This document shows positions 3,000 through 57,062 of a stretch of DNA of 64,000 nt, one piece after another. The DNA lies in NCBI GenBank assembly GCA_944470555.2, contig OX104127.1, forward strand, positions 132,495,113 through 132,559,112. Direction: 5' to 3'. The stretch's first letter is position 1, and each line of letters begins with the position of its first letter. This DNA is from Heterobilharzia americana (Eukaryota > Platyhelminthes > Trematoda > Strigeidida > Schistosomatidae). The notes under the pieces are model-generated. The model saw only the letters and a list, made by a program, of their open reading frames with translations. It did not search any database and was not told the DNA's origin. A program made the translations under genes and the position numbers.

Positions 3000-3255
3000 A
3001 ATTTTTAGTTATTGTAGGTACAACAAATTCGATTAAAGTAATTTATGAAGAAATCATTTCGATAGCAGTTATATGGATAGCTGGACAATTGTAACAACGC
3101 AAAATAATACAGAAAAAAAGTGCTCAATCTCAAGTTTTATATTTCTCAAAGGCAAAAATGAGGAAATCACCAAACTAATAGGCAATAGGAGAAAAAGAAA
3201 AGCACAACATGAGTGTTTATGCACACATATAACACAAACTACAAAGAAGGGACCG

Positions 3256-7424: not shown

Positions 7425-7530
7425 AAGTGATTTCAGGTTAGAATTCATTATGGACTGATATAAGTTGGAGGAACATTGAAGACCTGGGAGCACTGGATAG
7501 CCATTTCGTCCAAGTAGGGGACCTAAGTCT
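7425..7530 (-). mobile_element. SINE-2 tail and hammerhead fragment
   Basis: The tail motif (ttcattatggactgatataa) and the block cctgggagcactggatagcc mark a truncated SINE-2 on the minus strand, cut where the next LINE begins. Confidence 0.5.
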
Positions 7531-12970: not shown

Positions 12971-13137
12971 GATTTTTGAATTTTCATGTTGTTATTACGT
13001 GAACGATTTTCGTTTAGCTCACTTATTAATTTCACATTCCCCTTCACACTGACAATTATCTACTCACTTTGTTACAAATTCTTTACTCCTTGATTTTCAT
13101 TCACATTTACTCACCTTATCAAATGTTTTCATATTTC

Positions 13138-13416
13138 AAACTGTTATTCATCGTGGACTGACATCAGTTACAGGAACATTGGATACCTGGGAATACTGGA
13201 CAGCTGTTTCATCCTAGTATGGGATTCCTCAGCAGTGCGCACCCATGACCCCCGCCACGCCAAGCCAGGTATCGAACCCAGGATATCCAGGTTCCGTGCC
13301 CAGTGCATTATCATTGAACCACTAGGTCGGAATCCAATGGTCCATATTTCCTTCTTCTGTCAGTTCACGATATAACACGACCTCTATCCAATGTCGTCGT
13401 TGAGTAACTGTCTTCA
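13138..13416 (-). mobile_element. SINE-2 copy, full-length, hammerhead core intact
   Basis: The minus strand runs from the 5' region (atgaagacagttactcaacg), through the tRNA-like head (A-box-like cctagtggttcaatgataat, B box gggttcgatacc) and the hammerhead at 13193-13244, to the tail at 13138. This copy has a compensated stem II. Confidence 0.65.
13193..13244 (-). ncRNA. Hammerhead motif, SINE-2 type, compensated stem II
   Basis: Minus-strand order: stem I strand GCACTG, core CTGAGGA (13232-13226), stem II ATCC/GGAT (13225-13222 and 13214-13211), GAAA (13210-13207), stem III ACAGCTGT (13207-13200) and cleavage C at 13199. Compared with GTCC/GGAC in other copies, both ends of one base pair have changed (G-C to A-T), so pairing is kept. 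Stem I keeps about four pairs and then mismatches. Confidence 0.6.
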
Positions 13417-13419
13417 TAT

Positions 13420-15585
13420 TCGAATTGGTTGACTCCACTGGTCTTTTTGTTATAAATATGATGCTTTAAGAGTATAGGAATATTAGTCATTTCAATCATA
13501 CTCATATTATTATTCCCCTTGATTAGTGAAATGCATATGCCTATGTGTGAAATAGGCTTTTCTTGAGTCAACGATGGAAAACACTGTAGGCAGCATATGT
13601 ACAAACGTTAAGTAACTATCAACTTGATTGATTGCCAGTAGAATAACCTACATAATGTCTTGCAATTAGGTGATACCGTTTGCCAACTAAGAGTCAAAAC
13701 ATTCTCCTACATAATTGCAATACGATTCAGACATCGACTATTTCTAAGTGTAACGTAATGTGAAAATAGGTGATGACATCGTGTTAGCCTATCTAAGTAA
13801 TCTAGTGGCACATTGAGTAATAGATACATATGACTGGCTGTATGCATTCAGTTGTTGTTGTTTTTTTCGAGAAAATATTACAATGATCGTTGAAAACCCT
13901 GTCAAACTTTTAAAGATCAAAAAAACTAATAAAACAATGTGGAACTTCGTACAAACGTCAATCGATTCATTTTGTCAGAATTCGAAACAGTTTTGAAAAA
14001 AAGAACAAACAAAACTATAATGATGCTAAAGTAACCAAAAAGATAAATGAGACAATATAAAATGAACAAATGAAAGTTGATAAAATGTTCAAAACTCTCG
14101 GGATTATAAAGAATGAATACCATTGCATCATTATAATAGACTTTCAAATATGTCACTTAAGTTATTCGACTAGTGATTCCTGATATCTCAAGCAGCTTAT
14201 ACTATATTAGACAATTTAAACCAACAGTCAATGACTTTAGACATGAGTGTTGTATCTCAATCTGGCTATCTACAGTTTCCTTACAAATGGATTCGATTAC
14301 AATAAGAATTCGGAGGTGGCTAGATAGGCGCAACACGCCTTTTAGTCATACCGAGTGACAAATTCTGACAACCTCATCATTTTCACATGGATATTCCTCT
14401 TAAACAAATTTCTTAGAGTAGTTACATCCATTCCTATAGATTGACGGCTGATGAAACTTCATAATGAATACAGAAACCCAACCAATGCATATTTATTATT
14501 TCAGTAAAATATCCAACTTAAAACGCAATTCAGTGAACAAGAAAATATATTCTTTTCAATAACTCTCACTTCACATAGATATCCAAATAGGTACGAAAAG
14601 ATGAATGAAGTGCTAGATTCGATGCTTTAAAACATATATCAACCGAAGTAGTCAATTGAAGTTTACTGGCAGCATTTCTCAGTTTGTTTCTGTTTCTTAT
14701 TGATAATAATTGTTGTACATAGGGCTATAGTTAAGTCTTCTTTTTAATACTGAACGGGTTTATACAGTGCATATTGTTCACGCTATTTAAGGAATAAGAG
14801 ACATTCCAATCACTCAACTTGTAACTACTGTGTGTCATGGATTCGAACCCGAATCCTACCTAAATTATTTTATGCCGTAGGACAGTATATCATCCTAGCT
14901 CGTGCAAGTTCGACGTACTTCAGAGAGTCTAACATCCGAGCTTTTGCAGCACTGCACTTTACAGTTGTTATATTGCTATGCTGTTACTAACTCACTAATA
15001 ATTTCAGCTGAAAGAAAATCCTAAAACAGGACACAGAAAATAGCAATAGATCAGTCTGGAGAATCCTATGTTATGACAGGTTTCTATTATTTTCTAGGTC
15101 GTCTAAATACAGACCCACAAAAAGGTGGATCGTTCTGGTTAAATTAATTGATCGGATTTTCCCGTCTCAACAATAGTATTGTATTCTATATATATAACGG
15201 TTAAGCACTATATGGTTTGGTCTATCAACTCTACAGATAACAACATATACCAAAAACACCAGTGAGATTTAGTAAAACTATCGATAAGATAATTGTAGTA
15301 CGAGGACAAGTTGGTTCTCATCATAGCTGAAACGATCGATGTCACGATCAGTGTTCTACTGACTACGCTAAGAGATTCAATTATTAACCACATCTCTACT
15401 TCGCTTTAATCACCTATAATTTGGGTAAGTGATGTATCATGAAAACATGCGTATACGAAATTATAGTGTGAACCAGTTGCAACTTTCTTCGTATCTTAAT
15501 CATTGAGAAACTATGTTACCTGACATGATCCATACGGATATAAATCTCTATTACCCATGGGACATTAGAGTGACTAGTATATCGT
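13420..15585. other. Intron, no clear feature
   Basis: This is a long AT-rich stretch with short open frames only. A sequence at about 14836-14858 (ggattcgaacccgaatcc) looks like a B box, but no A box or known body is visible. Otherwise I see nothing. Confidence 0.45.
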
Positions 15586-20386: not shown

Positions 20387-21107
20387 TAGAGATTTAGAGG
20401 TAGTGTTCATCACGGACCGTGATCAGTTGAGGAACAACTGTAAACTTGGTAGCAGTGGACAGCTGTTTCATTTTAGTATCGGACTTCTCAGCAACACGTA
20501 CCCACGACCCCACCACAGATCAAACTCAGGACATTCTGGTTTCAAGGCGAATGCGTAAACCATTCAGTCAACTGGTCGGAGTTCAATGGTTCATAGTTTC
20601 CAACTCAGTCAATTAACGATATAGCGCGACTATCACCCAAGGTCTTCAGTTGGCATCCGCTTCCCTTAAGGCTTGTTGGCCGCACAGGTCATGGCTTCTT
20701 ATCAAAACTTCGTGATATCCATCCGGAAGCATGACACTAATGAGCACTATACAGCAATGTATTTTTGAGATGAATGGGGGTTTTAATTTTGAGATGGTAT
20801 TCATCACTGAGTGACCTATGGGTCAATCAGTCGGAAGAACAGATCCTAAACGAAGACCTTGGGTGAGATTCGCGCTATATCGTATATTGACTGAAGTTGG
20901 AAACTATGAACCATTGAACTCCGACCAGTTGGCTGAATGGTTTACGCATTCGCCTTGAAACCAGAATGTCCTGAGTTTGATCTGTGGTAGGGCCGTAGGT
21001 GCGTACCGCTAAGGAGTCCCATACCAGGACGAAACAGCCATCCAATGCTCCCAGGTTTCTAATGGTTCCTCAATTGATGTCAGCCCGTGATGAATAGTAC
21101 CTCAAAA
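20387..21107. mobile_element. SINE-2 inverted dimer, diverged
   Basis: A minus-oriented SINE-2 arm (20387-20660) and a plus-oriented arm (about 20850-21107) face each other around a distinct centre (20660-20850). The arms share ttccaactcagtcaattaac and its complement, the tRNA-like head and the tail motif at both outer ends. Both hammerheads are broken: TTCA in the left arm's GAAA region, and CTAAGGA in the right arm at about 21018. Confidence 0.6.
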
Positions 21108-32221: not shown

Positions 32222-32560
32222 CTGTATCCTTCCGGAAGGATACCATGAAGCTCTAATGAGGAGCCGTTACCTGTGGGATCAACCAGTCGGAAGGGAAGAG
32301 GATGGCAACTGAAGACCTTCGGTGATAGTCACACTATGTCATGAATTGACAAAAGTTGGAAATTGTGAACCAGTGGCTGAATGCTCAAGGCGTTCGCCTT
32401 GAAACCTGTAGGTCCTGAGTTCGGTCCTCAGTCGGGTCATGGGTGCATACTGCTGAAGAGTAGTCCCATACTGGGACGAAACAGCTGCCCAGTGCTCCCA
32501 AATTCCCAATGGTTCCCAACTGATGTCAGTCCATGACAAATACTACCTCTAAAAAGAACT
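32222..32560 (+). mobile_element. SINE-2 copy, full-length, near-intact hammerhead
   Basis: The 5' region (ccttccggaaggataccatg ... gaagaccttcggtgatag), the tRNA-like head (agtggctgaatgctcaaggc, B-box remnant), a hammerhead at about 32443-32500 and the tail to tactacct are visible. The core CTGAAGA and GAAA remain. The cleavage triplet is GCC in place of GTC, and stem II has an inserted TA. Confidence 0.6.
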
Positions 32561-35665: not shown

Positions 35666-35741
35666 TTTCCCTCAACCCTTTCGTTTCTTTTCTGATCTTT
35701 CTTTTTCATCCCCGCTCCCTTTTTTGTTACTTTATTTCCCG

Positions 35742-36056
35742 AAGTTCCAATGAGAAGTCATGACCGGTGAGGGCAGAGCCTGATGGTCATGAGGACAGTT
35801 ACTCAACGATGATATTGGGTGGTGGTTGCGCTATATCGTGAGCTAACAGAATTTGGAAATATGGAGCATTGGATTCTGACCCAGTGGCTCAATGAGGTGC
35901 TGGCCACGAACCTGAAGGTCGCGGGTTCGAGCCCCAGCGACGTCGTGCGTGCGTACTGCTGAGGAGTCCCGCACTAGGACGAGACAGCTGTCCAGTGCTC
36001 CCAGGTTTCCTTTGTTCCTCCAACTGATGTCAGATTACGATGAATAACAACTTGAA
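35742..36056 (+). mobile_element. SINE-2 copy, full-length single arm
   Basis: The 5' region (gagggcagagcctgatggtc ... acagttactcaacgatg) leads to the tRNA-like head (cccagtggctcaatg, B box ggttcgagcccc), the hammerhead (35950-36000) and the tail (ttgttcctccaactgatgtc). Core CTGAGGA, stem II and the palindromic stem III are kept. GAAA has become GAGA. Confidence 0.65.
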
Positions 36057-36194
36057 AAAAGTGTAAAACGGAATTATTATCATTACTAACGCTATTTTTT
36101 AAATCAGACTTCCCTCCCGTCTTGTTATAATAAACCTTTAAAATTCCTGTTGAAACATTTTTTTCCCACACTATTACTACGCTCATCATCTCAT

Positions 36195-36775: not shown

Positions 36776-36891
36776 TAAACAGCATAATGCGAAGACGAAG
36801 ATTATCTGAAACATGTGATGTATTGTTCGAAATGTATAGTGTTAATACATCACATGTTTCAGATAATCTCGTCTTCGCATTACGCTGTTTA
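36776..36891. repeat. 48-bp near-perfect inverted repeat (hairpin)
   Basis: The left arm (36776-36824) and right arm (36844-36891) are reverse complements with one mismatch and one single-base insertion, around a 19-nt loop. It follows the GIY-YIG remnant and belongs to no family I recognise here. Confidence 0.85.
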
Positions 36892-37263
36892 GGCATTAAT
36901 GACTCGTCTAGGCAGTTGTAAATAATATATGAACAGAAGGTAGAACACAATTTCATTCCACATGATCTATTCCGAAATTCACTTTTGTTTGAATACTTCC
37001 CGGTATTATTTCTCCTAATCGTCTTAACCAAGAGGAAAAGGAAAAAATATTGATTGGATTTTAACAGCTTGTCTAGTCCTACTACATAGCACTTATTGAT
37101 CTACTATTTTCATCAGTTTTACACTACTTTCTGAGTCATATACATTGGATGAACCATACATAACATAATCCATTTTTTTAAGGGAGTTGTGGAGATTTGG
37201 AATTATTTCAAGTTGTTATTCATCGTAGACTGACATCAGTTGGAGGACAAAGGAAACCTGGGA

Positions 37264-37309
37264 GCACTGGACAGCTGTTTCGTCCTAGCATGGGACTCCT
37301 CAGCAGTGC
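37264..37309 (-). ncRNA. Hammerhead motif, SINE-2 type, intact
   Basis: Minus strand: stem I GCACTG (37309-37304) with CAGTGC (37269-37264), six pairs. Core CTGAGGA (37303-37297); stem II GTCC (37296-37293) and GGAC (37285-37282) with loop CATGCTA; GAAA (37281-37278). Stem III is the palindrome ACAGCTGT (37278-37271). Predicted cleavage is after the base at 37270 (GTC). All core positions fit the hammerhead consensus. Confidence 0.72.
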
Positions 37310-37611
37310 GCGCCCACGACCCCCCAGCAGGGATCGAACACGCGACCTTCAGGTTCCGTGGCCAGCGCGTTACCATTGAGCCACTGGGTCAGAATCCAAT
37401 GTTCCATATTTCCAACTTCTGTTAGCTCACGATATATAGCGCAACCGCCACCCAATGTCATCGCTGAGTATTTGTCCTCATGGCCATCAGGCTTTGACTC
37501 CACGGTCACGACTTGTCATTGGAACTTCTGACCCAGTGGCTCAATGGTAACGCGCTGGCCGCGGAACCTGAAGGTCGCGGGTTCGATCCCTGCTGGCGGG
37601 GTCGTGGGTGC

Positions 37612-37657
37612 GCACTGCTGAGGAGTCCCATATTAGGACGAAACAGCTGTCCAGTGC
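37612..37657 (+). ncRNA. Hammerhead motif, SINE-2 type, intact
   Basis: Plus strand: stem I GCACTG (37612-37617) with CAGTGC (37652-37657). Core CTGAGGA (37618-37624); stem II GTCC (37625-37628) and GGAC (37636-37639) with loop CATATTA; GAAA (37640-37643). Stem III is ACAGCTGT (37643-37650), with predicted cleavage after C37651. Only the stem II loop differs from the paired minus copy. Confidence 0.72.
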
Positions 37658-38054
37658 TCCCAGGTTTCCTTTGTTCCTCCAACTGATGTCAGTCTACGAT
37701 GAATAACAACTTGAAATAATCCATTTTGTTATCACGCATACTTCAAGTGTTATCAAAAGTACATTTATGGTTATCATTTATTATTATTTATTTAAGGATA
37801 TAATGTCTGATCTTCAAATATTCATCCTTCCAAACTGTAATCTATTCTTTCTCACCCTTGATGTCTCACAACCCCATTGTACTTTTAATAGACTAACTGA
37901 AAAAAATTTTCTCACCCTATTTGTTCCACCCTACTAGTACAACGAAAAGAAAACCTTTCTGACCGATTGCTTATTCACTCACCTGTATTAAGTTGATCTT
38001 TGCTCCATATCACTATGTAATTGGATGATTGTGAAGGTCACCACTTGCTGTCAC

Positions 38055-38790: not shown

Positions 38791-39390
38791 TGATAACTTG
38801 TAATTCTCTGTCGTTTCATCGATCCAATTGTTCCACCTCCATTGACATGTCGCCTACTATAAGATACACCTCGATATTACCTGATTATCAATTACGGTCA
38901 TTTAATTGGTGTTGGCTACCACACGAATCCACGATGCACGGCCCATCCTCTTTAGGAATCACTCCTCAGCTGCCTGCATCTACCTACACTCCACTACTCC
39001 ACTCCACCCACTCCATTCCACTCCACTCCACTTCGGACTCAAGTCATCTTCTTCCCAAAGAGACATCAACCTCGTTGTACAAAAAGTGGCTATCGTTCCT
39101 CCAAGGCATAGTAGATAACGCCTTGGCGTTTGAAGTGATGGGTACGAAGTTCGAGTCTCGGTCGGAACAACATCACTCCCCACTCGGGTGCAGGTACGTC
39201 TAGCTGACGAATCCCAAATACGTCGAAACGTGCATCCTGGATTTTTCTGCTAGCTACAACCAACTAAGTTACTATAGGTCACATTCTAATTATCACTCCA
39301 TACCCATTCCTAAATGAATTTTATAACAGTAGAACCTGATGAGAAGTTACTGGAAAGAATATTCTTCGTTCATAATTGACTTTTACAATA
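38790..39390 (+). repeat. 600-bp duplicated segment, SM-alpha derived (copy 1)
   Basis: It is almost identical to 48503-49102. It contains an SM-alpha tail, a minus-oriented ribozyme remnant (38920-38970), a CACTC pentamer tract (38995-39030), a plus-oriented head and a ribozyme (39197-39242) with CTGACGA and GAAA but weak stem II (ATCC opposite CGTC). The two copies differ at only about eight to twelve sites by eye. Confidence 0.75.
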
Positions 39391-47916: not shown

Positions 47917-48028
47917 GACAAAATAAAAACTTTTAAAAGACCTGGTAAAACATATTTTTCACGTTAATATTACTCTTATTATCTGAACCATTTCACATTT
48001 TAACCATCTAATGATGACATATCTGCTC

Positions 48029-48308
48029 CAAACCTGGTGACCGTGAGGACAAATGCTCAACGATGACATTGGTTGATGGCCGCGCTATGTCGTGAACTGA
48101 CAGAAGTTGGAAATATGAACCATTGGATTCCGGCCCATTGGCTCAATGGTAACGTGCCGGCCAAGGGACTTGAAGGTCGCGGGTTCGATCCCTGACAAGG
48201 TCATGGGTGTGCACTTCCATACCAGGACGAAGGGGATCTCCAGTGCTCCCAGGTTCCTTATGTTCCTCCAACTGATGTCAACCCATAATGAATACAAACT
48301 TGAAAGAA
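48029..48308 (+). mobile_element. SINE-2 copy, full-length, in a filled site
   Basis: It runs from acctggtgaccgtgaggaca through the tRNA-like head (cattggctcaatggtaacgt, B box gggttcgatccc) to the tail ending acaaacttgaaagaa. The hammerhead has lost its first core strand by deletion, and GAAA is GAAG. The empty counterpart at 36195-36330 defines the ends. Confidence 0.65.
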
Positions 48309-48502
48309 CACTCCATCTCTGCCCTTAGGTAAATTCATGTCATTCTTTGTGTTAACGCTTCATTAGACACAATGTGACCTTCAACTTCTTTTTATTTATT
48401 TTCCTTTCCTATGCTGTGAACAGTCACTACGACTGATCGTCAGTCGATTGACTCAGTTTATGCTGTCATCTACAAACTTTAAAGAGCCATATTTTATGAT
48501 TA

Positions 48503-49102
48503 TTTATTGATCTACTTGTAATTCTCTGTCGCTTCATCCGATCCAATTGTTCCACCTCCATTGACATGTCGGCTACTATAAGAATACACCACGATATTAC
48601 CTGATTATCAATTATGGTCATTTAATTGGTTGTGGCTACCACACGAATCCACGATGCACGGCCCATCCTCTTTAGGAATCACTCCTCAGCTGCCTGCATC
48701 TACCTACACTCCACTACTCCACTCCACCCCACTCCATTCCACTCCACTCCACTTCGGACTCAAGTCATCTTCTTCCCAAAGAGACATCAACCTCGTTGTA
48801 CAAAAAGTGGCTATCGTTCCTCCAAGGCATAGTAGATAACGCCTTGGTGTTTGAAGTGATGGGTACGAAGTTCGAGTCTCGGTCGGAACAACATCACTCC
48901 CCACTCGGGTGCAGGTACGTCTAGCTGACGAATCCCAAATACGTCGAAACGTGCATCCTGGATTTTTCTGCTAGCTACAACCAACTAAGTTACTATAGGT
49001 CGCATTCTAATTATCACTCCATACCCATTCCTAAATGAATTTTATAACAGTAGAACCTGATGAGAAGTTACTGGAAAGAATATTCTTCGTTCATATTTGA
49101 CT
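48503..49102 (+). repeat. 600-bp duplicated segment, SM-alpha derived (copy 2)
   Basis: This is a near-identical copy of 38790-39390 in the same orientation. Flanking sequence differs immediately outside both ends, with tttattgat shared at the left junction. It contains the same inverted ribozyme remnants and CACTC tract. Confidence 0.75.
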
Positions 49103-49334: not shown

Positions 49335-49790
49335 ACCTACTGATTTCACTGTGGCCGCTGGTTCGAATCCCATCGAGGTCCGAATTTTAATTGCACCTTC
49401 GATCATTACCCAGTATCAATAGGAGCCCCAAATAGTCACAAATTAATAGTCAATATGATGCTCCTAACCTCCAACTGAAAGAGATTTGGATTCGGATGAG
49501 AAGTCCTGACTGGGCAGTCAGTTTGAATACCATCAAGAGGTAGTAACGCGTGACGAATACACATGGTAGTCGGTCAAGACCCTTGGTGGTTGAAACGATA
49601 TAAAAATCTGGTCAGTAGTTTGGCCCCGTAGCTCAGTTGGTACAGCATTGGGCAGGAAGCTCGGTGGTCACTGGTTCGAATCCGGCCGCGGCTCAAATTT
49701 TGACTTCACTTTCAATAACCCCCCAGTATCAATGCTATTCTCCCAGGCCGCGGCTATCTCAGATAGTCAAAATGATATTCACATAGAGCC
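49335..49790 (+). mobile_element. SINE-3 tandem pair
   Basis: A tRNA-like half (ggtcactggttcgaatccc-type, 49350-49380) with body is followed, after a spacer (ggatgagaagtcctgactgg), by a second complete head at 49622-49690. That head has A box tagctcagttggtacagca and B box ggttcgaatcc, followed by its body to about 49790. This B box is perfect. Confidence 0.65.
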
Positions 49791-52861: not shown

Positions 52862-53312
52862 TCTGACTATCTGAGATAGCTGTGGTTTGGCAGACTAGTA
52901 TTTATACTGGATGGTGATTGAAGGTGAAATGAAAATTTTGACCGCGGTCGGATTCAAACCAGCGTCCACCTGGTTTTCGGCCCGATGCTCTACATTCACC
53001 TTCAATCACCACCCAGTATACATGTTCCCCATCTCTAATTGACCGAGATTTGGATACGGATGAGAAGTCCTGACTGGGCAGCTAATGAGTGCGACCAGGC
53101 GGTAGTAACGCATAACGAATTCATATAGCAGTCGTTCAAAACACCTGGTGGTTGGAATGGTCAAATAAAAATTTGGTCAGTAGTCAGGTCTCGTAGCTCA
53201 GTTGACAGAGCATCCGACCGAAAATCCGGTGGTCACTGGTTCGAATCCTACTGCGGCCTAAATTCTCATTTCACTTTCAATCACCACCCAGTATCAACTT
53301 ACTGATAACCAT
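52848..53312. mobile_element. SINE-3 composite inserted in the LINE, with 14-bp TSD
   Basis: TTACTGATAACCAT occurs at 52848-52861 and 53299-53312, flanking the insert 52862-53298. The insert holds a truncated minus-oriented head and body (52862-52997), a spacer shared with 49480-49620, and a complete plus-oriented head (53190-53260, B box ggttcgaatcc) with body ending cacccagtatcaa. It interrupts the LINE frame and is therefore younger than the LINE. Confidence 0.75.
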
Positions 53313-53785: not shown

Positions 53786-54149
53786 TTGAGTAATATCACC
53801 ATGATTATATGAGAGCAATAATCACCAAGATTTCTAGGACTGCACAACTATCCTACATAGCATAAACCAACAGTCTGTAACCTTATCAAGCGTTGTCAGG
53901 TATTCATCTTATCACGACTACATGAACCTAAGCTCAAAAGAAATACAAGGTCACTACAGCTCACTGAAACATACGACAAAACTATTTTCCGTTCGTCTCA
54001 ACTATACACAGATATAGCACAAAAGCTAAGCATATTACATGACCTGTTACTTGAATAACACCAAAACTCTTAAAAGCTGTGTGAGTTAAATGAATGGTCA
54101 ATGGTAGATAACGGATAGAATTTGAATGTTTGTGGGGATTTAGAGATTT

Positions 54150-54496
54150 TAAAAGTTAGTATTCACCATGGACTGACATCAGTTGGAGGAGCATTGGAAA
54201 CCTGGGAGCACTGGACAGCTATTTCGTCCTAGTATGGGACTCAGCAGTGCGCACCCATGACTCTGCCAGGGATCGAACCCGAGACCTCCAGGTTCCATGG
54301 CCAGCACGTTACCATTGGATCCCGACCCAGTGGCCCAATGGTAACGTGTTGGCCACGGAACCTGAAGGTCGTAGGTTCGATCCCTGGCGGGAACTACTGA
54401 AGAGTCCCATACTGGGGAGAAACAGCTGTCCAGTGCTCCCAGGTTTCCAAGGTTCCTCCAACTGATATCAGTCCATGATGAATACCAACTTGAAGA
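54150..54496. mobile_element. SINE-2 inverted dimer, compact
   Basis: A minus arm (54150-54325) and a plus arm (54315-54496) are joined almost directly at their tRNA-like heads. The tail motif (tggactgacatcagttgg and its complement) lies at both outer ends. The minus hammerhead has lost three core bases (CTGA-GTCC). The plus one has CTGAAGA and GAAA but weak stem II and a rebuilt stem I. Confidence 0.65.
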
Positions 54497-55479: not shown

Positions 55480-57062
55480 ATATCAACATAGGACCAGGCA
55501 TTACTACGTAACGGTCCGAATTGCCACACCTTATATCAGCATATCAAGTAAAAAGGCAGTGAGGCGCAGGATGAAGAGAGAATGCAGTCGAAAGAAATAT
55601 AAAGTACGAAAAGAGAGAAAAGAAGAATGAGAAAATGATGAGATTCGATATAGCGTTAAAATGAGGATAACCTGTGAATACATCCGCGCCACTCACATCG
55701 GTTCTCAGCCATATCACCTAGAGTTTCTAATCACTGGTTCCTCCTGTCTCGTCGACCCTAACCACCTAGTCTGCGTCGCCCCACATGGCTCAAACCAACA
55801 GTCAAACACTTCATACACTCATCCCATATTTTAGTCTGGCCACCCTCCAGCCTTTTTCCAACCAGATACTACTTCAACCAACATTGTGTGATGAGGCAAT
55901 CGGTCACCAGACATATGTAACACGTGTTCCAACCATCTCAGTCGATGAAAGTTAACAACCGTGTCAACTGATTTACCTCTTCTCCCTAAAACTCTACGCA
56001 TGACTTCTGCATTACTCACGTGGTGACACCACGCAATACAGGGCCTATACTACGAAGGCAACGGTGGTCGAACACTTGAAGCCTTTTCATGTCTTCCACC
56101 TTCAATGGCCGTGTTTCACAGCCATACAGTAGAACAGACCGGACTGCTGTGCAGTACACGCGACCCTCAATGGACAATCGGATATCACGGCGGCGCCATA
56201 GGTGGTGTAAGTTGGCGAAAGCCAATCGAGTCTTTTGTATCCGTGCAGAGATTTCATCGGCAACTGCCCCACCAGGGCTGATACTACTTCCCAGGTAATT
56301 CAAGTGGTCAACACACTCAACCACTTCACTCTCTCTTTTGTTAGCCATGGCACCTCTGAAGACCAGTCCTGCAGCAGCAATTTGCATTTGGGTGGTGAGA
56401 AACGCACACCAAACATTCTCAAATTCCCACTCAAAGTGTTCAGAAGACTCTGCATCTTGTCAGCGGCTTCACCTAACAGGACAATGTCATCTGCATACTC
56501 TACGTCTAACGAAAATTCTCCACCGACTACGTCAACGTCTGTGTAATCAGGCGACGAGAGGGAAACCTCCATAAGAGTATCATCTATGATAAAATTAAAT
56601 AAGAATGGAGAAAGTGGGTATCCTTGACGGACACCACTCAATGGGTACAGCTCACCTGACATCTCACCATAGGCTCAACATGCCCACAAGTGTTCGAGTA
56701 GAGAGCCTTCAATAAGGTGATGTATGTATTCGAAACGCCTTTCAGTGAGAGACACTGCCATAAGACTTCTCGATCAACGGAGTCGAATGCCGCCACTTCC
56801 AGGTCCAGAAATACAGCTACTGGTGGGCGCCGGTAAGCGTGTCTGTGTTACAAAACCTGGCGCAGTGTGAATATTTGGTCGACACATCCACGGCCAGGTC
56901 TAAAGCCTGCTTGGTTTTCTCGGACTTGATGTTCCCGAGCTCCACTCAGGCGTCGGAGAATTATAGAACCTAGGATCTTGGACACTGTGTTCGTCAGACT
57001 GATTCCTCTGTGGTTATCACAAGAGGACTTCTCGCCTTTCTTGAAGACTGGGATAATCATTT
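55480..57062 (-). mobile_element. LINE, RT to 3' end, best-preserved copy
   Basis: Minus-strand frames in order: RT fingers IIPVFKKGEKSSCDNHRGIS and ENQAGFRPGRGCVDQIFTLR (57060-56850), a disrupted AFDSVDREVLW segment (near 56790), then SGVRQGYPLSPFLFNFIIDD (about 56640-56580). The catalytic box is EYADDIVLLGEAADKMQSLLN (about 56500-56440). Further on are VVECVDHLNYLGSSISPG, LYGCETRPLKVEDMKRLQVF and the C-terminus VNFHRLRWLEHVLHMSGDRL. Only a few frameshifts break it. It ends in a 3' UTR with ggaccgttacgtagtaatgc and an ATTGAT-type simple tail. The endonuclease is missing, so it is 5'-truncated. It is RTE- or CR1-like; the clade is not certain. Confidence 0.8.

Follow-up and report, generated by a model that had tools for sequence, protein, structure and literature searches.

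The window analyzed here, a stretch of 64,000 nucleotides from the 664.9-Mb genome of Heterobilharzia americana (C1:132495113-132559112), contains 20 Hammerhead_1 matches that reach the gathering score in a cmscan search against Rfam 15. Two of these, each 46 nt long, lie in opposite orientations at 37612-37657 on the plus strand (RF00163, 45.8 bits, E 1.4e-8) and at 37264-37309 on the minus strand (RF00163, 44.6 bits, E 3.3e-8), so that the covariance-model search which an earlier note on this DNA had named as a check places both over the gathering score. Both motifs contain the perfect 6-bp stem I (GCACTG/CAGTGC) and the other elements that this note had reported, with CTGAGGA, GTCC/GGAC, GAAA, ACAGCTGT, and a GTC cleavage site all present. 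They have the features of the RF00163 class (a CUGANGA...GAAA core, three stems, open at stem I, and an NUH site), and from their sequence we classify both as type I hammerheads, with self-cleavage predicted between 37651 and 37652 in the plus-strand motif and between 37270 and 37269 in the minus-strand motif.

When 18 of the 20 window hammerheads were aligned, 89.2% of the pair cells held standard pairs compared to 79.2% in shuffles, and versions of the alignment that had been slid had only 20 to 38% of cells paired. Two-sided changes were found in 10 of the 14 pairs in this alignment (5 of 6 in stem I, 2 of 4 in stem II, and 3 of 4 in stem III). Read by eye, stem I has the layout seen in SM-alpha, with six pairs, a small asymmetric internal loop, and a G/C clamp. 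The window also contains, at about 36780-36887 (L002:1091-1198), a long inverted repeat that scores with several miRNA models on both strands, all below the gathering score.

The two opposed copies that carry these hammerheads are both present as the earlier note had described them, but they are the head-to-head arms of one insertion event and not separate elements. The element and its target-site duplication (TSD) span 37165-37727, with an exact 12-bp repeat (ATAATCCATTTT) at 37165-37176 on the left and 37716-37727 on the right. The left, inverted arm (37176-37528, minus strand; 97.2% identity to the consensus of a 404-bp unit) runs from unit position 144 through 404 to 95, and its outermost 3' end falls in a class of ends that we call A; the right arm (37517-37720, plus strand; 97.5%) runs from 272 through 404 to 69 and has its 3' end, also outermost, in a second class, B. 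The two arm alignments overlap by 12 bp of microhomology at the head-to-head junction (37517-37528), next to a tRNA-like region at 37530-37603 on the plus strand with A-box-like and B-box-like stretches (B box at 37580-37590). The locus records a single insertion of SINE-2, as we call this non-autonomous retroposon with its hammerhead.

The SINE-2 unit is circularly permuted and 403 to 404 bp long. With position 1 at the base that directly follows the hammerhead cleavage site, it consists of a tail (1-91), a spacer, a 5' region, the tRNA-like region from 283, and the hammerhead, which ends at 404. The earlier description of the family as tRNA-headed is weak: A-box-like and B-box-like stretches are found at unit positions 291 and 333, but an Rfam search of window positions 37500-37720 gave no tRNA match up to E ≤10, and the tRNA-like region does not lie at the 5' end, as it follows 282 nt of the unit. 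This region may resemble tRNA-Trp. Elsewhere in the window, tRNA matches over the gathering score were found on the plus strand at 158-230, 49622-49694, and 53187-53259, and ARAGORN reads the one at 49622 as tRNA-Ser(GGA).

A profile search detected 18 SINE-2 pieces at 13 loci in the window (E ≤7.2e-6), of which 11 copies had seeded the profile and match by construction; a blastn search with only the two original copies had already located the same places. The related copies listed in the earlier note are thus real, and the loci at 7430, 25235/25308, and 31628 are additional to that list. The SINE-2 loci of the window include an older inverted pair at 54116-54494 (about 81% identity to the unit; minus-strand arm ending at unit 99, class A, and plus-strand arm at unit 64, class B), an old inverted pair at 20392-21107 whose outer ends are both B (66 and 65), and single-arm copies at 35736-36067 (plus strand, with a hammerhead at 35953-35998), 13132-13443 (minus strand, with a hammerhead at 13193-13238), 48027-48319 (plus strand), and 32230-32553 (plus strand, old). 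Only four SINE-2 pieces in the window have hammerheads at the gathering score (37264, 37612, 13193, and 35953). SINE-2 copies are short, dispersed, flanked by TSDs, and non-coding, and a first look at the genome gave 5,076 candidates. Exact-pattern scans found no match in viral contigs and a single match in genome contigs (L001), which we take for chance, judging from the length of the pattern.

The literature has referred to hammerheads in schistosome SINEs since 1998. Like SM-alpha and Sj-alpha, SINE-2 has a zero-loop stem III in its type I hammerhead and a tRNA-like region upstream of this ribozyme, and it differs from SM-alpha in the sequences of stem I and stem III, in the tail, and in a loop II that is longer by one nucleotide. 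The units are also of different length (404 bp compared to a rough 318 bp), and the SINE-2 profile reached SM-alpha copies weakly, with a best E value of 3.8e-5 at 2072-2203, so that SINE-2 does not have whole-unit identity to SM-alpha and the proposal of a hammerhead family distinct from it holds. It is doubtful, however, that the family is little described, as the note had supposed. The available text of a study of Schistosoma mansoni W elements describes a family, W27.2, with a 403-bp monomer and a hammerhead weakly like that of SM-alpha, with relatives in all schistosome species that its authors examined (PMC8490949). SINE-2 is probably a relative of W27.2, and the family was probably already known as a hammerhead repeat, judging from unit length and description. 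W27.2, grouped with W25.2 and W26.2, shares with SINE-2 a 403-bp tandem monomer, a type I hammerhead weakly like that of SM-alpha, and autosomal dispersal; the same text differs from our results in giving a possible TSD for one W25.2 copy and reporting no Penelope-like anatomy (PMC8490949).

We asked how SINE-2 insertions are built across the genome by segmenting 59 loci (L010 to L068) against the 404-bp unit; these loci were drawn from the top of two ranked lists and are well-preserved copies and not a random sample. An inverted second arm, head to head with the first, was found in 41 of the 59 loci, a lower bound because short arms were missed (L045 was counted as single, yet its flank contains a short inverted arm with an A end). 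TSDs of at least 10 nt were found in 38 of the 59 loci, 28 of them 12 to 13 nt long and 12 nt being the commonest length, compared to 40 of 3,422 mismatched pairings of left and right flanks between loci; two of these TSDs are doubtful, since that of L047 is a TA run and that of L053 lies 8 to 11 nt off the arm ends. Such TSDs were present in 32 of the 41 loci with an inverted arm and in 6 of the 18 without. The SINE-2 TSDs are 78% A+T, compared to 62% for the window. In these same dispersed loci, the hammerhead is identical to the intact consensus in 38 of the 87 copies read, and 39 arms are partial tandems with at least 20 duplicated columns.

The outer ends of the paired arms follow a simple rule. 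With end classes that were defined after the data had been seen (A, unit 90-107; B, unit 54-75), exactly one A end was found in 39 of the 41 pairs, while the mean for random assignment was 20.7 and none of 100,000 label shuffles reached the observed number. The pairs comprise 27 A+B, 12 A+other, 1 A+A (L048), and 1 B+B (L053), with L043, which has three segments, counted by its outer ends. The flanks of L048 are inverted repeats of each other, and this locus is therefore a larger palindrome or an assembly fold-back. Among the 18 single-arm loci, 12 end at B, 5 at A, and 1 elsewhere. In the window itself, two of the five pairs keep the rule (the 37165-37727 locus and 54116-54494), while the pair at 20392-21107 breaks it as B+B and two pairs have other ends. 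The distance between A (about unit 100) and B (about unit 67) is about 33 nt.

SM-alpha insertions in the same genome are alike in having inverted pairs with one A end. We mapped 20 SM-alpha loci on a rough 318-bp unit joined from two copies and found an inverted arm in 16 of them. With end classes again set after the data had been seen (A, 130-155; B, 30-50), all 16 pairs have exactly one A-type end (13 A+B and 3 A+other), a result reached by 14 of 100,000 shuffles. TSDs of at least 10 nt were found in 9 of 19 loci, with L106 excluded as too near the end of its stretch, compared to 0 of 342 controls; the apparent TSD of L092 is a TAA run at a 12-nt offset. The spacing between A and B is about 110 nt in SM-alpha, compared to about 33 nt in SINE-2. 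An SM-alpha-bearing stretch is also duplicated in the window, at 39204-39356 and 48925-49077, with identical pattern hits 9,721 bp apart.

If an inverted dimer arose when a single cDNA folded back and copied itself, the two arms of a pair would share a source. We found that arms within a pair differ at 2.2% of positions compared to 3.7% for random arms (41 pairs), and in 15 of the 41 pairs the difference is below half the random mean (0 of 308 positions in L027), as such a snap-back predicts and as would also be expected from a mechanism with one template. Self-priming on an antisense template has also been proposed for rotifer Penelope (PMC3846280, available text). In contrast, other pairs have arms that differ about as much as random arms do (18 of 211 positions in L064, 12 of 217 in L040, and 11 of 221 in L052; also L068 and L026), and snap-back does not predict outer ends that fall in different start classes. 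The within-pair differences look like a mixture, and because some pairs are as unlike as random arms, at least some insertions appear to have had two different templates, which may have been separate RNAs or divergent units within a single RNA. We had initially assumed snap-back; given the unlike arms and the one-A rule we now regard it as quite improbable and prefer priming at two ends.

The partial tandem within an arm bears on the form of the template. Reverse transcription for more than one lap around a monomeric circular RNA, the model proposed for metazoan non-LTR retrozymes (PMC7229834 and PMC7761336, in the parts available), would explain a tail at both ends of an arm. However, in the 39 arms with at least 20 duplicated columns the tails within one arm differ at 83 of 2,683 positions (3.1%), close to the 3.6% found between the tails of different arms. 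At diagnostic column 45, 7 of 33 arms have A in the upstream and T in the downstream tail, and none has the reverse. Some arms do have identical tails (e.g., L012, L014, L025, L026, and L027), and none of the 87 arms with an A or B end contains a second full lap. On these sequence differences, a linear RNA read from a tandem source would account for the tails and a single-unit circle would not, which makes a circular template unlikely.

We found a candidate source of this kind on contig C128, where a tandem array of 403-bp SINE-2 units occupies about 70.9-72.3 kb and 78-80 kb, with further matches at multiples of 403 bp between the two stretches read. All seven hammerheads scanned there (L088 and L090) are intact, at 47.8 bits. 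Over about 54-80 kb of C128 (L088 to L090), the array is preceded by 5,504-bp repeats, two of which were read and carry about 1.6 to 1.7 units each, and a Twister-P1-like match lies at L088:3857-3930 on the minus strand (E 1.4e-5; its 38.8 bits fall short of the gathering score, 67.2). Such an array might suggest a plain satellite or foldback repeat that spreads without retrotransposition, an explanation to which we give almost no weight, as the dispersed copies have TSDs of 12 to 13 bp and variable 5' starts.

The 5' starts of the arms were compared to the predicted cleavage site in loci chosen for a spacer or a full copy. Among 87 arms with A or B ends, none starts at unit 1-11, 23 start at 12-40, and 9 start upstream of the cleavage site, so an exact start at that site was rejected as a rule. 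Arms with other 3' ends start at unit 3 (L057), unit 2 (L083), and unit 9 (the inverted arm of L014). These positions offer a suggestion only that templates often begin near a cleaved RNA end. Among 17 loci compared for arms with an upstream hammerhead, those ending at A or B start at -42 to -75 apart from L073, which starts at -122, one base before the tRNA-like region, and L076, which extends to -189; L044 starts at about -117, by eye. The start of L073 might resemble that of a Pol III transcript, again as a suggestion only, and the 5' end of the tRNA-like region as a stop for such arms was rejected because L076 passes beyond it, although L073 stops there. With none of the 87 A- or B-ending arms starting at unit 1-11 and 9 of them starting upstream of the site, a role for hammerhead cleavage in insertion is no more than putative.

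The anatomy of SINE-2 insertions resembles that of Penelope-like elements (PLEs). PLEs such as Penelope, Poseidon, Perere-10, and Sj-penelope2 share with SINE-2 a partial tandem (the pLTR), a head-to-head inverted arm, an optional tail at one end, a TSD, an A/T-rich target, and an internal start of reverse transcription, and they are associated with hammerheads in the literature, a review describing minimal hammerheads in PLEs (PMC6155905, available text). SINE-2 has the combination of partial tandem and inverted arm, and its A-B distance of about 33 nt matches the 30- to 40-nt tail that PLEs have at one end only; the SM-alpha spacing of about 110 nt is unlike such a tail. According to the parts available of two studies, rotifer Penelope inserts have a pair of direct pLTRs next to an inverted one, along with a 9-bp TSD and, at one of the ends, a tail of 31 bp, and Penelope is able to carry foreign sequence in trans (PMC3846280). 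For a lizard PLE, reverse transcription begins at two neighboring sites within the RNA, the interval between them forming a tail of 30 to 40 bp, and both strands of A/T-rich DNA are cut and extended (PMC11167929). The same lizard text saw no difference in start site between strands and describes insertion in vitro even by hammerhead mutants (PMC11167929). SINE-2 differs from PLEs in encoding no protein and in its Pol III-type box-like stretches, and since its 404-bp unit is too short for an RT plus GIY-YIG open reading frame, SINE-2 is not itself an autonomous PLE.

PLEs are present in this genome. A query with PLE RT gave 4,312 candidates, and among the 150 matches scored, many of which have long open frames, six are head-to-head neighbors with the minus-strand copy on the left. 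Four PLE loci were examined, three of them picked for lying in pairs, and L119 alone was covered to both ends. This locus contains two 844-codon open frames head to head in arms identical at 3,172 of 3,174 aligned positions, with direct repeats of 332 bp, a TSD of 12 nt (ATCCTGAAATTT), and a 26-nt difference between the outer ends; from its sequence it looks like a young PLE with an insertion anatomy similar to that of SINE-2, and in this one locus the one-A rule is followed. At its center, a hairpin (L119:3214-3343) scores with miRNA models below the gathering score. A second locus, L118, has an 808-codon open frame with a YVDD motif, and Pfam RVT_1 matched in both L118 and L119. For GIY-YIG, these two proposed helpers gave no Pfam match (E ≤0.01) and have a motif-only Y-x-G stretch after CIYQF. 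Elsewhere PF01541 had two matches, one a decayed PLE and the other, in our reading, an SLX1-like gene. Among the best 120 of 1,662 matches of the PLE protein, the named relatives are mostly fluke and tapeworm proteins with a few labeled as bacterial MAGs, and the nearest named ones are from Schistosoma spindalis (63% identity, full length) and Trichobilharzia regenti (70% over 68%).

The four PLE loci differ from SINE-2 in sequence. Apart from an old copy of SINE-2 that lies next to one of the PLEs, they had no match to the SINE-2 unit and no tail sequence in common with it, and they did not match the SM-alpha unit either, so sequence assigns no PLE partner. No hammerhead was recognized in these four loci (Rfam, E ≤1, and a core-motif search of the flanks of L118 and L119).

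SINEs are as a rule mobilized by LINEs, and an RTE, CR1, or other LINE could in principle mobilize SINE-2, with the inverted arms arising by ordinary twin priming. A LINE-type RT fragment, typed by our own reading, does lie in the window at 56303-56674 on the minus strand (RVT_1, E 2.5e-13), and according to the available text of a study of S. haematobium, 2 of 16 hammerhead sRNA clusters overlap LINE/RTE-BovB DNA and 7 of 16 overlap SINE/tRNA DNA (PMC5993326). However, twin priming on one RNA yields a 5' inversion and not a second overlapping copy, and the arms here overlap in the same stretch of the unit. We also know of no LINE signature in which two internal end classes occur with exactly one A per pair. 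On balance, a LINE is an unlikely agent, if slightly less so than a circular template is.

We favor as probable, from insertion anatomy, that PLE machinery mobilizes SINE-2 in trans, by target-primed reverse transcription from two ends. The template would be RNA that had been transcribed from a tandem source. At an A/T-rich target, a nick on one side would prime reverse transcription at internal site A (about unit 100), and another nick, in the opposite strand at a distance of about 12 bp, would prime a second reverse transcription, mostly at site B (about unit 67) and in some insertions at least on another template. Once the two cDNAs had joined head to head, the product would be an inverted dimer with a TSD of 12 to 13 bp on either side. 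What we read from sequence, and build on, is the unit, its classes of end, the TSDs, the inverted arms, the intact hammerheads, and a young PLE of similar anatomy in the same genome; the agency of a PLE, the use of the two nicks as primers, and the trimming of the RNA 5' end by hammerhead cleavage in an upstream unit are what we infer in addition. Two hammerheads could pair through the zero-loop, self-complementary stem III. With a little less confidence, we lean toward the broader reading that schistosome hammerhead SINEs, SM-alpha included, are parasites of PLEs and not of LINEs, and that their insertions would record two-ended target-primed reverse transcription with one priming per nick, at two different internal RNA sites and at least sometimes on two RNAs, which stem III might bring together.

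Animal hammerhead retrozymes have been proposed to use PLEs, as both have hammerheads, are tandem, and co-exist (PMC7229834 and PMC7761336, available text). Metazoan non-LTR retrozymes are like SINE-2 in being small, non-coding, non-autonomous hammerhead repeats found in tandem arrays (PMC7229834, available text), and they differ in their proposed circular template, against which the unlike duplicated tails of many SINE-2 insertions argue. In a limited collection of papers, our literature search found no description of a SINE with Penelope-type insertion anatomy and no demonstration of the machinery that moves schistosome hammerhead SINEs, and the Penelope-type anatomy of SINE-2 and SM-alpha insertions appears to be new. 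This anatomy provides structural evidence for the link between PLEs and hammerhead retrozymes and extends that link to SM-alpha in this genome, while the tail data argue against a one-circle RNA template for many SINE-2 insertions. The SINE-2 copies also offer a large natural set of insertions in which to read the poorly known Penelope mechanism, including which end starts where and whether one RNA or two are used.
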